A stretch of 64,000 nt of DNA, taken from assembly GCF_032362555.1 (NCBI RefSeq), contig NC_083516.1:9201001-9265000 (forward strand), in the 5' to 3' direction. The DNA is from Amyelois transitella. Taxonomy: Eukaryota; Arthropoda; Insecta; Lepidoptera; Pyralidae. The notes under the pieces were generated by a model that was not told the DNA's origin, did not search any database, and was given only the letters and a program-made list of their open reading frames with translations. This document shows positions 12,500-41,446 of this stretch, piece by piece. The position numbers were made by a program, and so were the translations under genes. Numbering within the stretch: position 1 is the stretch's first letter; each line of letters begins with the position of its first letter.

Positions 12500-15400
12500 T
12501 TAAACTGACTCTGGTAGTGTATAATTGGCGACAATTCCAAAGGGTCTTAGATGATACACGAAGAATTCCATCAAGTTAAGGTAACTGTGGGTCACGTTGT
12601 GGAATGATATTGCGTAGTCTGAGGCGCCATCGGAAGCCTGGAAAAAATACATGCATCTATACATCTTACGGGGCAGGCAGAGCCAGTCTCGATGGCCTAG
12701 TTCAACATGGAGATTCAGATAGGACAAAAGTTGTTTTACCGTCGCGTAGTTTAGTTTTGAGTTTAGTTTTTTCTAAGTTATTAATTGTTAATGCAGGTAT
12801 AAAGTACTGTTTATGTATATGTATATTGTAAATGACATTAACTTTTACCTTTTTCTAATAAAAAACCATCCAATACAATAATCCACACCAAAGTATCAAA
12901 TAAGACTTAGTAGATAATTATTACATACCATTTTCAATTCTGGTGGTTTGAAAGGAATTAACCGACCACGACCCACGGAGTCACGAGAATCAACCGCTTT
13001 AATGTCTAATGTTCGGACACATTCACCTGAAAAAAAAACCAAATGTTTGTGCCAATCAATAGGTATCTACATACACACAAAACGTTGAACAAAAAAGGCG
13101 GCAAACCTGCGCAGGAGTATTTGTCAGATTGTCTTGTAAAGTTGCACTAGATGTATATTAATTTAATTATGGCCCACTCAGTTCAAGGCACTGAATTTTT
13201 AACATCACAAAACAGACACTCAAGTTATAAAAGTTTCAATACAATGCAATACAAATTATCTTTATTGCCCATAAAAAAATACATATGTAGTAGAAACATA
13301 CATTATGAATATGTTGAGCAAAAGCGGACTTATAGCTAAGCAATCCCTTCCAGTCAACCTTTGGGTAGTTATCCTAAAGTAGGCAAAATTCATTTGGAGA
13401 ATGAGTAATTTTTCATACCCAAAACAACGATTAGTAAATCTGATGTAGAATTGCATAGATGTGATCTCTTGGCTAGTTTCTCTATTGCAGTTTTGCTTAA
13501 AACGTATCCCGGATCAAATGCTAGCCTCTGAAAGAAAAATCAAAGTTAAGTCTAGTTTTAGGCTGCTGCTAGCTGTTGCCCGCGACTTCGTCCGCGTAAA
13601 TTTTCGATTTTTTCCGCGTAAACTTATTTGCAGGCACACTCATGCCTTGAGTTCATTCAAATGACGATAACTTTTTTTTAGTAAACCGATTTTCATAAAA
13701 CAAACATTAAATATTTTTCTAAGATGAAACAAAGCAATTGGTGAAAGTTTTAAGTAAATCGGTTCAGCACCTCGTAGGTATAGATTATGGGACATTTAAA
13801 AATCACTTAATAATTGTCATATCTTTAGGTTTCACAACATTGGTTGACTTCAAAAAATAAAACTTAAAACTAAGTTAACTGCCGCTTCCCAAGAGTCAGT
13901 GCAGAAAAAGCGGTAACAAACTGCACTGCACCATTTCCTTCGATATCGTCAACTTCACAATTATCCAAAACTAGAATAGAAAAAATCAGAATCTGTTTTA
14001 GTTTTTGTTTTGATCATGTTATCTCTTTGCAATGAAATATTAGTACCTACGGGTATTTTTGGGATTTGCACAAGGCGATTATCTAAACAAAGTAAAATCG
14101 GACCCACCAACAACCCTTGCCTTCAAACTCTGGTCTAAGTGATTTAGAGGTAACCACATTACCACAACGCCAAAGAATTCTATAACAAGAATACGGAAAT
14201 ACCTTCTCTTGTATATCTTCAAGTGCGCAGCCGAAATATACTGCCTCTGAACTGAAGTGGCTCAATAACATGTATTTCAGATTTTCCATTATAACGTATC
14301 TGAAAAATAAAAAGTCTAAAAGTCTGTCGTGATAGGCGACTTAGAGATAGGCTTATAAACTTGTGATTCGTCTTTTAGGCGATGAACTAGCAACCTAGTT
14401 ACTATTTGAATCTCAATTTTATAAACACCGCTGAACGTGGCCCTATCAGTCCTTTAAATACTGTTGGTTCTGTCCACCCCGCAAGGGATATAGAAGTGAT
14501 TATATGTATGTATGAAAAATAACATGTCCTGGTAAAGGGTCAGGTCAAGAGTACCCGAAACCTCCGAGCTTGCATGAAGAGAGTTATGAATGTGGATGAA
14601 GCGAAGGAAGTATGCAGAGATCGTGGCAAGTGGAAAGAGGTAGTCTCTGCCTACCCCTCTGGGAAAGAGGCGTGATTTTATGTATGTATGTATGTATGAA
14701 AAATAAAGTGATACTAGGATTTTTCTCCTATGACTATTTTGTAACTTCTTACGTGTTATCGTCTATCATGAGGAACCAGTCTGCTTTGTCAACATGATAT
14801 TGGTATATGTATTCGAATCCCTCCCTTTCTCTGTCCCAAAGCTTGTCCTCCTCCGTGCTAAGGGTGACAGCTGGAAGATATTCATCTGAAATTACAGTGA
14901 ATACATTTTATAGTTTTAACGATAGGTACTAGATATAATATAAGTAGAATTCATCATTCAGTTTTTGTTTTGAACATGAATACATAAAATCACGTCTTTT
15001 CCCGGAGCGGTAGGCAGAGACTACTTCTTTCCACTTGCCACGATCTCTGTATACTTCGTTCGGCGGTTTCGGGTACTCTTGACCTGACCCTTTGCCAGGA
15101 CGAAGTACGAAATACAGAGAATACATTTCATAGCTTTGATGATAATATAGAAATCATCAGTCAGTTTCTATTAAGAGACATTAATTTGAGAAAAGTACCC
15201 TTTTTTATGGGACAACGATGAAAACAGACATAGCATTTTAGGTCTTACTATTAAGCTTAAAACCAAGAACCAACATATTTTAATAAAAAGTAGGTGTGCC
15301 GGAAATTGGATATGATGAAGTGAAGGTACCTATCCCTGAAAAATACTTTGATTTTTTACCTATTCAGACTGAAATATGATTTCACCAGTACTAACTTTTA

Positions 15401-38700: not shown

Positions 38701-41446
38701 TCCGGGTACGATATTTGTTACGGGTGTTTACGGTTGTAATTTGACACCTCAACCGACAAAAAGTACCTGAAAAATCAAAATGGCCGCCAACTGGCGACAG
38801 TTAAAAATGATTATATCCTTACGTGTCATCATCAGCTTTGAGGAACCAATCAGCGTCCCGCCGGTGATGCTCGTAAACGTATCGGAACGCCTCCTTCGTC
38901 TTCGCCCACAAATAGTCCCGACCTTCGTGGACTGGCAGTTTAACCGACGGCAGAGATTCGTCTGGAAATTAAAAAAAAACGGGCGAATTGAGATCTCTTT
39001 TCCTTTTTTAAAGTCATTACATAGATTATAATTAACTTATTTCTTTGACTTTGGCAACCCGTCCCGGCTTCGCACGGGTATTTTTAGTAAAAGTTTGCGA
39101 TAAGTAAAGTATTTTTTTACTTACCTCAGAATAAATAAAAATGAAAATATACTACGAAATAAAAGAACCTAAGTATCTAACCTAACCCTTTAACTATAAA
39201 AGAACATTACGTTTATACTATGTATGTAGGTTATATCAACCTAACTTATTTTTGCATTGCGCTTCATAGGTACCTATATCTTAAATTTTGTGTTACTGAC
39301 CGAGCAAACGAAGCGAGTAAGGTCTACCAATAGACTAACTTGGACCGAATATATGTATATATATTTTTTTTGTATATACGTATCTTTGTAACGCGATAAC
39401 TTTTAAACCGTTGGTTCTAACATAACTTGAAAATACTTTGTATTTCAGCTCTGAGATTCTGTCAAACTCACCTTCCTCCGAGCTCATGAATATAAGCTTA
39501 TTACACCTCTTCCCCCACGTCGCTTTCACATGCCTGGCCTTTTTATTATGATTGACAGGTTGGGTCATCACCCAGCATAGCACCCTGACTTTCTTCGCCA
39601 ACTCATCGGCGACCGATCTGTCTTCATTTCTGTGCGCCGGCTCATCGCTACTGTGTTCAATCAGATTCGATATGGGATGTTTCTCTAGATCTCTTGCCGA
39701 TTCTCTGAAATTTGTTTGTAATTGTAAAATATGTTGTATGTTATAAATGTACCTCTCGGTCATACTGTATAGTCCATTTCTTTAGGTAAGTAGTTAAAAT
39801 GATAAAAATTTTGGTACGTCTATTTAAAGAAAAATAAATTAAAAGTTAATAGCAAAAGAAATTTATTACTAAATGTTATATCCATTTCGCTTTTTCTTCT
39901 CACGATAAAAAAATAATTAAATTTGAAATATAACCAAATAAAGTGCTTATGATTAGATACTAAAACTACCTACGTATACAACAAAAAAAAGATAACAAAC
40001 TAAAATTAAATTTAAGCACAGTCTCTGCATGCAACCTGCAAAACTCTGCAAGAACCGGTGCCCGCAGATTGATTTTATGCAATTTATTTATTTTTTATTA
40101 TTTTAATAAAATATTAAATAATTTAATAAAAATTAAACTTAATAAAATAATAAAAATAAAGATTACTTTTATTTCAGTACGTTAAAAAATGGACTGTACA
40201 TATAAGTAATTTGTAAGAGCTGATAAATATGAGCTAAGACTAGCCAGTTCATAATTGATACCGGAGAATCATGCTGTGTTATCTACTAATATAAAAAAAA
40301 CACCAAATGCATTTTATGTACAGCCAACGGTCATGTTTCTCTGCCGATGACTGTACATTGAATTTCTTTTTAACTATTATACATAATAAAAATATCTTCA
40401 TCTTTACTGATTGAGGTCAGTCAGACTCCCACTCAAAACAGGCCAATAAATTTCAATAAATTTATTTGATATGGGCAATCTATTCTCATTGTTTTGCTGA
40501 GTAATAATACATATATATATATATATATATATATATATACTCAATCAGTAACTACGCCTATAAAACTTTAACAAAGCCATGCACGAAAATATAAAAAAAT
40601 TAATATATCTCTTTTTCCTATTCTGTATTGGGAACATTGCTATTTATAAAGACCTCATTTGCAACAATTTGAAAGCGCTAATATTAAAATTTCTGTATTT
40701 ATCGCCGAGTATGCTAGATCGATATTGCTAAACTGAAATAAGGCAATCTTGTTTAAAGCTAAGAACTTATAAATGCACTTAAGAGTCTAAGACAACGACA
40801 ACTGTTTAGTGCAGAGGGTAGGTATATGACTGACATGATTTTAATGTCTGTCTGCAAATTTGTTAAGATTTTTAAGCAAGGCTTTTTTACTCTGGTCGCT
40901 GAGCAGAGCTGGTATTACTTACTCGTAAAAAGACATTTTATTTCATATACTCATCTAAATAAAATTAACAATTAAAATGAATTAAGATGATTATAAATCC
41001 AATTAACAAAATATGTTAAAACATGTACCTGAAAAGCAAATTGTTCTTTATTTATTATTTATTTTCTTTCAAGAACAATTTGCAAAAAAAAAAAACAACT
41101 TTTTTACAAACAAGAAAGTTTTTTTTTTTATTTAAATAAACTTTAACTTACTATTTCAATATTAGTATTAAAATTAATTAATTAATGTTCGTGGTGTACA
41201 GTGTGTGTAAAGCGCAAGCATAGATAATCACAGAGCACAAAAAAAAACACAAAAACACAAGCAGAAAGAGCACAATTAAAACAACACGGCATGCGAAAGA
41301 AATATTACAAAAAGCGTCATTTATATTTACCTGTACTGAGAATAAACTACATCTCTGCCGTGTCCTGTAGATGTTAAGAATATGTATGCGACACTAAATC
41401 CCGCTGATATCCCAATCACCAATGTTAGAACAAAACGACGACCCAT
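35717..41446 (-). CDS. C1GalTA: Core-1 beta-1,3-galactosyltransferase (C1GalT), copy D, apparently active
   Basis: Seven exons in transcript order: 41331-41446, 39472-39704, 38823-38961, 38071-38167, 37529-37655, 36225-36379 and 35717-35887. They give about 345 residues, close to the 363 of human C1GALT1. A signal anchor covers residues 3-25 ([19 protein letters not shown]), then a stem, then the GT31 domain. That domain has [45 protein letters not shown] (DDD at 160-162), [62 protein letters not shown] and HLRPYG. All metal-motif and cysteine landmarks of the family are intact. The enzyme adds galactose from UDP-Gal in beta-1,3 linkage to Ser/Thr-linked GalNAc (Tn antigen) to make the T antigen in the Golgi. 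An extra first exon near 44658 may add seven residues. A tandem array derived from the exon at 37529 fills the next intron. The symbol follows the Drosophila gene and is by similarity. Confidence 0.94.
36598..37160 (-). repeat. Tandem array of C1GalT-D exon end plus splice donor
   Basis: Downstream (lower coordinates) of the exon at 37529-37655, four partial copies of its last bases plus donor occur. In plus-strand reading CCCATCTCC(G/T)CATCTTCAGCG begins near 36600, 36768, 36946 and 37114; the real one begins at 37528. Spacing is about 168, 178 and 168 bases. The larger gap before the real exon is filled by a family A insertion (37226-37486). Each copy also carries intron sequence (ACTATCAAACCAGG, CAGTTGACGTCATGAGC). 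Their donors read GTGAGT, GTAAGT, GTTAGT and GTAAGT. Confidence 0.9.
37226..37486 (-). repeat. Family A element inserted in the exon-end array
   Basis: Complete inverted copy from CATACATATGGTCACGTC to TACCGGGAACCACACA. It lies between the first true donor and the first duplicated donor. Confidence 0.85.
37826..38042 (-). repeat. Family A element, internally deleted
   Basis: Starts ATATAATCACTTCTATATCC and ends GTGCCGGGAACCACACGAC, about 28 bases from the copy D exon at 38071. Confidence 0.75.
40511..40541. repeat. TA microsatellite
   Basis: About 30 bases of pure (AT)n in the copy D upstream intron region. Confidence 0.8.

Follow-up and report, generated by a model that had tools for sequence, protein, structure and literature searches.

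Altered active sites in three of four linked C1GalT-like genes of Amyelois transitella

What are C1GalT-like genes for when residues of their active sites have been replaced? The question is raised by a stretch of 64,000 nucleotides of the Amyelois transitella genome (contig C12, 9201001-9265000; here, the window), in which four such genes, named A, B, C and D, lie within positions 12500-41446, with A, B and D on the minus strand and C on the plus strand. An initial annotation had proposed that D is the active core-1 synthase and that A, B and C have lost catalysis. The four copies were compared residue by residue with the solved Drosophila C1GalT1 (7q4i), and at that level both proposals held: D is predicted to be the active gene, with the active site of the Drosophila enzyme intact, and A, B and C appear to have lost catalysis through changes that reach well beyond the DDD motif.

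Homology and active-site residues of the four copies

When the core proteins were searched against the PDB with phmmer, Drosophila C1GalT1 (7q4i) ranked first for each copy, with expectation values of 4.7e-131 for D, 2.1e-87 for B, 1.9e-55 for A and 7.8e-34 for C. Core protein identity to this enzyme was 67% for D, 48.5% for B, 41% for A and 37% for C, and identity to D was 53% for B and 44% for both A and C. The Pfam Fringe model matched the first-draft cores of D, B and A at 56.8, 37.7 and 28.5 bits (curated cut-off 21), and gave no match to that of C. With 7q4i as the top phmmer match for every core, the four genes were upheld as linked C1GalT paralogues.

At the position of the DxD motif (D181-D183 in Drosophila), D reads ADDDT, B ADDAT, A IDDNT and C ATTGKG; the exon translations and the alignment agreed with the readings originally made there. 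The codon for the third Asp lies at 38827-38825 in D, and its counterparts specify Asn in A (14757-14755) and Ala in B (23374-23372). The ATTGKG of C, which carries one extra residue, lies in the exon ending at 27916. When the window was searched by tblastn with the four cores, no second exon 3 of the DDD type came to light for any of the altered copies.

The active site was defined as 16 ligand and catalytic residues described for the Drosophila enzyme (PMC9065035), comprising the uridine diphosphate (UDP), Mn and acceptor contacts and the base. Met160, a backbone contact, was excluded from this set, and Gly151, likewise a backbone contact, was included. D has the Drosophila residue at 15 of the 16 positions, Y213 being Phe. 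Differences from D number 8 in B, 11 in A and 13 in C, the latter two with three gaps each; with gaps excluded, the changes are 8 in A, 8 in B and 10 in C. B carries G151N, R152K, D183A, F213H, Y218L, D255V (by an ungapped reading), Y304N and Y325F, and retains E150, L155, K158, D181, D182, S220, W300 and H324; its exon 5 loop reads SGCAG versus SGGAG in D. The base D255, in the xED segment, is retained in D, is aligned to Val in B and to Ile in A, and is aligned to Asp in C within a gapped stretch. In A the base, the Gly loop and the stretch around W300 are gone, as are several acceptor contacts. C has Thr-Thr-Gly in place of D181-D183 and has lost H324 and part of the Gly-rich loop; it retains W300 and lacks most donor contacts. 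H324 (C-His) is present in D, B and A, and is Asp in C. Seven cysteines were followed, of which D has all seven, B six, and A and C five each. The CCSD motif is CCSD in D, CCSE in B and CYSD in C, and A has lost the CC; this motif has been described for T-synthases, and a mollusc T-synthase reported as an active enzyme has TMSD (PMC11005171). The alteration of the DDD motif would thus be one symptom of a wider active-site loss in A, B and C.

Gene models, tree and age of the copies

Each copy was modelled as six core exons plus a candidate short hydrophobic exon 1. The genes span 41446-35717 (D, minus strand), 24937-18526 (B, minus), 15920-12500 (A, minus) and 26228-31614 (C, plus); the doubtful exon 1 of A, at 18189-18077, lies beyond the span given for that gene. 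The exons are as follows.

41331..41446, minus, D exon 1, signal anchor (open reading frame and CAG/GTAAAT donor, phase 2)
39472..39704, minus, D exon 2 (GT-AG, phases, homology to 7q4i)
38823..38961, minus, D exon 3, ADDDT (intact DxD)
38071..38167, minus, D exon 4
37529..37655, minus, D exon 5, Gly-rich loop SGGAG and xED base
36225..36379, minus, D exon 6
35717..35887, minus, D exon 7, CCSD, C-His, alpha9 and stop
24876..24937, minus, B exon 1, candidate signal anchor (open reading frame and GAG/GTAAGT, phase 2)
23999..24306, minus, B exon 2
23370..23508, minus, B exon 3, ADDAT (D183A)
22742..22847, minus, B exon 4
21408..21534, minus, B exon 5, SGCAG, base D255 aligned to V
19453..19607, minus, B exon 6
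18526..18648, minus, B exon 7, CCSE, H324 kept, stop
18077..18189, minus, A exon 1, doubtful (phase mismatch with exon 2)
15744..15920, minus, A exon 2
14753..14885, minus, A exon 3, IDDNT (D183N)
14203..14299, minus, A exon 4
13419..13527, minus, A exon 5, Gly loop and xED changed
12929..13026, minus, A exon 6, 57 nucleotides shorter, W300 region absent
12500..12637, minus, A exon 7, CC lost, H324 kept, stop
26228..26283, plus, C exon 1, candidate signal anchor (open reading frame and TAT/GTAAGT, phase 2)
26822..26988, plus, C exon 2
27799..27916, plus, C exon 3, ATTGKG, DxD gone, part of alpha3 missing
28857..28947, plus, C exon 4, alpha4, 13 of 14 residues as in D
29193..29295, plus, C exon 5, Gly loop shortened, Asp aligned to D255
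30209..30354, plus, C exon 6
31354..31614, plus, C exon 7, H324D, Y325D, alpha9 kept, extended tail, stop

Exon borders in the modelled chains are GT-AG. The exon lengths of D, taken modulo 3, are 2, 2, 1, 1, 1, 2 and 0. B and C share these values in all seven exons and A in six of seven; because the splice sites were picked with the frame known, this agreement counts as support and not as a clean test. Within exons 2-6 there are 11 differences in length from D, located in exons 2 and 4 of B, exons 2-6 of C, and exons 2, 3, 5 and 6 of A, and 10 of these are multiples of three. The exception is A exon 2, which is 56 nucleotides shorter than its counterpart in D. The 57 nucleotides by which A exon 6 falls short of D reflect the use of a different donor. 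No stops, frameshifts or broken splice sites were found in exons 2-7 of A, B or C. The join of exons 1 and 2 is in frame for B and C and not for A, whose exon 1 (phase 2) mismatches the best exon 2 acceptor (phase 1). A repeat copy at 15915-16013, 87% like 19038-19136, reaches this acceptor and may have replaced the original 5' end of A. Complete frames had initially been ascribed to all three altered copies; this stands for B and C, as phase-preserving seven-exon chains, and is not confirmed for A, with its 5' end out of phase.

Intron 5 of D contains, at 36522-37159 on the minus strand, a tandem array of the tail of exon 5, described by Tandem Repeats Finder as 3.7 copies of 168 or 1.8 copies of 346. 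The unit includes the xED segment together with its 5' splice site and lacks the half that encodes the Gly loop, and three of four copies have, judged by eye, an upstream AG that fits the phase, with weak acceptors. These copies could be decoy donors or unused mini-exons.

A protein tree of five taxa (the four copies and Drosophila; 220 gapless columns) joined A and B with a Shimodaira-Hasegawa-like approximate likelihood ratio (SH-aLRT) of 86.8 and an ultrafast bootstrap of 81, and left the position of C open. Since the approximately unbiased (AU) test retained 11 of the 15 topologies at 0.05, even the joining of A and B is not proven. A and B may then be sisters, a grouping that is weakly supported, and two origins of catalytic loss would suffice. 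The earlier proposal of three different, independent losses was not borne out, as A and B tend to group. Protein branch lengths were 0.98 for A, 1.20 for C, 0.41 for B and 0.11 for D.

Fourfold degenerate sites differed at 25 of 39 positions between A and B, 22 of 30 between A and C, 32 of 42 between A and D, 24 of 36 between B and C, 36 of 58 between B and D, and 27 of 42 between C and D. Over the six pairs these sites were thus 62-76% different, near saturation, and second positions were 28-42% different, which argues that the copies are old and have mostly been under selection at the protein level. A one-ratio codon model gave an omega of about 0.05 on all three four-taxon trees, and because the C branch lay at the optimiser's bound and the A branch close to it, the value was dropped and saturation alone was used.

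Neutral decay was simulated by mutating the D core in silico, the three gaps each in A and C being counted as changes. With substitutions only, none of the 7 times sampled gave more than 1 run in 3000 with an intact frame and at least 8 active-site changes; the counts observed in B, A and C were never reached in the 1500 runs made for each of 9 times, whether indels were allowed or not. As simulated neutral decay rarely left a core intact with so many changes, catalytic constraint would have been lost first, with coding constraint continuing.

Maintained pseudoenzymes and competing explanations

In the explanation that we favour, D would make core 1 as the sole recognisable working core-1 beta1,3-galactosyltransferase gene, and A, B and C would be old tandem paralogues in which canonical galactose transfer has been lost with residues of the metal site, the donor site and/or the base. 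B and C, at least, would have been retained in the secretory pathway as type II membrane proteins that fold but do not catalyse, and the likeliest way for them to work would be by pairing, with D or with themselves, through the GT-A dimer face. Such pairing would adjust how much active T-synthase dimer there is, how it folds or where it is placed; it could take the form of heterodimers with D or of homodimers with a separate role, and a Cosmc-like chaperone would be one version of it. Taken whole, with D active, A, B and C old dead paralogues, and at least B and C kept and perhaps pairing, this explanation seems to us evenly poised between true and false. We lean slightly towards B and/or C being maintained pseudoenzymes. 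That either acts through D is doubtful, and it is less likely still that non-catalytic partners of the T-synthase arose independently in this insect lineage, with B and C as the foremost candidates, retaining the dimer face and pairing with D. Decay is likeliest for A, whose status is uncertain.

Pairing is brought into consideration by Drosophila C1GalT1, which is described as a tight dimer (PMC9065035). The interface elements were named from that report and their boundaries drawn by eye, in a test conceived after the alignment. In C, interface-bearing elements kept 53 of 84 conserved positions versus 29 of 83 in the rest (Fisher p 0.0004), and 8 of 262 circular shifts were equally good; with boundaries set by eye, the result is exploratory. 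In helix alpha4, 13 of 14 residues of C are those of D. Active-site residues of C have been lost significantly more than other conserved residues (3 of 15 kept versus 82 of 167, p 0.03).

Several observations weigh against maintained, pairing pseudoenzymes. Neither B (interface 58 of 84, rest 56 of 83; 120 of 262 shifts as good) nor A (47 of 84 and 39 of 83; 39 of 262 shifts as good) shows a preference for the interface. Active-site and other conserved residues were kept at 8 of 15 versus 114 of 167 in B (p 0.26) and at 5 of 15 versus 86 of 167 in A (p 0.28), and hydrophobic positions had no significant advantage over polar ones in B (p 0.09), A (p 1) or C (p 0.056). Stretches of the fold are missing from A and C, with one or both of the adjacent cysteines. 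A structure model of B built from a four-row alignment was poor (mean predicted local distance difference test score 43, predicted template modelling score 0.33) and was rejected, so that the fold of B is not confirmed. The constraint read from the codon comparisons would cover the long past and not the present day. The insect enzymes described in the cited reports work without need of a partner (PMC9065035, PMC11005171, PMC12467441).

The altered copies might instead be dying duplicates, which diverged for long under constraint and whose loss of all function is too recent for stops to have accumulated. We consider this unlikely, if still a serious candidate. It is A that fits best, with its out-of-phase exon 1, the repeat copy at its exon 2 acceptor, its shortened exon 6 and its missing CC pair; the partial loss of exon 3 and the Gly loop in C, and the long protein branches of A, C and B relative to D, point the same way. 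However, the simulation indicates that the active-site changes are too many to have accumulated neutrally before the frame was broken, and B and C have open frames, GT-AG sites and length changes in multiples of three. An older loss of catalysis followed by a late end of constraint is a possible variant.

A further possibility, clearly improbable in our judgement, is continued enzymatic activity of at least one copy, most plausibly B, through changed chemistry or with a different donor or acceptor. B does retain the eight active-site residues listed above and six of the seven cysteines, but it lacks the second metal Asp and, by the ungapped reading of exons of equal length, the base, and the D255A variant of Drosophila C1GalT1 is reported to be completely inactive (PMC9065035). 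For C, the Asp aligned to D255 and the retained W300 would favour activity, although the alignment there is gapped and most donor contacts are gone; A is without the base and several acceptor contacts. Finally, errors of assembly or gene modelling are a very remote explanation of the altered motifs, for although a single assembly was the source and the exon models were made from sequence and not from transcripts, the motifs of A and B are clean codon replacements, many changes co-occur in each copy, the window contains no N, and tblastn revealed no alternative DDD exon within it.

Genomic context and comparison with known systems

Protein searches of the whole 327-Mb assembly (33 contigs) were scored exon by exon, a procedure by which short or diverged exons can be missed. 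They returned 20 matches with D as query, 15 with C, 20 with B and 19 with A, of which 18, 14, 17 and 16, respectively, lay inside the window and one per query on contig C23. The remaining matches (one for D, none for C, two each for B and A) were weaker and lay on contigs C15 and C4; judged by eye, these matches, like the Fringe-family hits on the two contigs, resemble exons of fringe, B3GLCT and chondroitin synthase. The C23 match (5778936-5779127, minus strand; loci L030/L031) represents a fifth C1GalT copy by its exon 2 alone, with an open frame and splice signals (flanks TTTTCCAG and GTGAAT), scoring best by tblastn with C; no further C1GalT exon was recognised in the 40 kb around it. By these searches, D is the sole canonical T-synthase recognised in the genome.

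A profile search with the alignment of D and 7q4i, which covered prokaryotes and viruses and says nothing on other insects, confirmed 0 of 111 pattern matches on prokaryote contigs and 0 of 50 on viral contigs. In the literature, the titles and abstract openings surveyed held nothing on DxD-less C1GalT paralogues in insects.

The window also contains neighbouring open reading frames that are possible synteny anchors, with RhoGAP domains (4988-5353 and 5934-6209), a SEFIR domain (52592-53254) and an exostosin GT47 domain (59410-60447, plus strand). An array of a unit of about 90 bp (periods 90, 197 and 287) lies at 7352-8195, close to the RhoGAP-coding frames. At 45534-46130, a 298-bp unit is tandemly duplicated with 100% matches, a recent duplication or an assembly artefact.

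Drosophila C1GalT1 (7q4i), a T-synthase of family GT31, is the closest solved structure for all four copies. D shares its active site and seven cysteines, whereas A, B and C lack the third Asp of the DxD motif as well as further residues that contact donor, metal or acceptor or serve as the base. Drosophila is stated to have eight C1GalTs (PMC8024498), so that a multi-copy family in an insect is not new; the novelty here is the state of the active sites and not the cluster itself. C1GalT enzymes make the commonest mucin-type sugar. Loss of C1GalT1 is reported to be lethal in Drosophila (PMC9065035).

The vertebrate chaperone Cosmc (C1GALT1C1) is a relative of C1GalT1 without the DxD motif (PMC5493369, PMC9065035), through which mammals control C1GalT1. 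The altered copies are likewise C1GalT1 relatives with a changed motif, the DxD being fully lost in C and only its third Asp in A and B, but they sit in a linked tandem cluster. A transmembrane disulfide is cited for the endoplasmic reticulum retention of Cosmc (PMC5493369); the candidate first exons of B and C are free of cysteine, which speaks against a Cosmc-like chaperone, and the doubtful exon 1 of A holds one. The cited accounts of the Drosophila and Bombyx T-synthases describe no need for a chaperone of the Cosmc type and report no such dependence (PMC9065035, PMC11005171, PMC12467441). By analogy, a Cosmc-like role for the altered copies is possible, and would place such a system in animals in which the T-synthase had been considered independent of one.

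A dead partner in the secretory pathway has a precedent in Fam20A, a pseudokinase that activates its paralogue Fam20C (PMC5865150), although these are kinases, with another fold and in another pathway. If dead paralogues are kept beside the live gene in this cluster, they would be a second, independent case in which to study how a glycosyltransferase pseudoenzyme regulates its active sister, and the cluster would offer a simple linked system for doing so.

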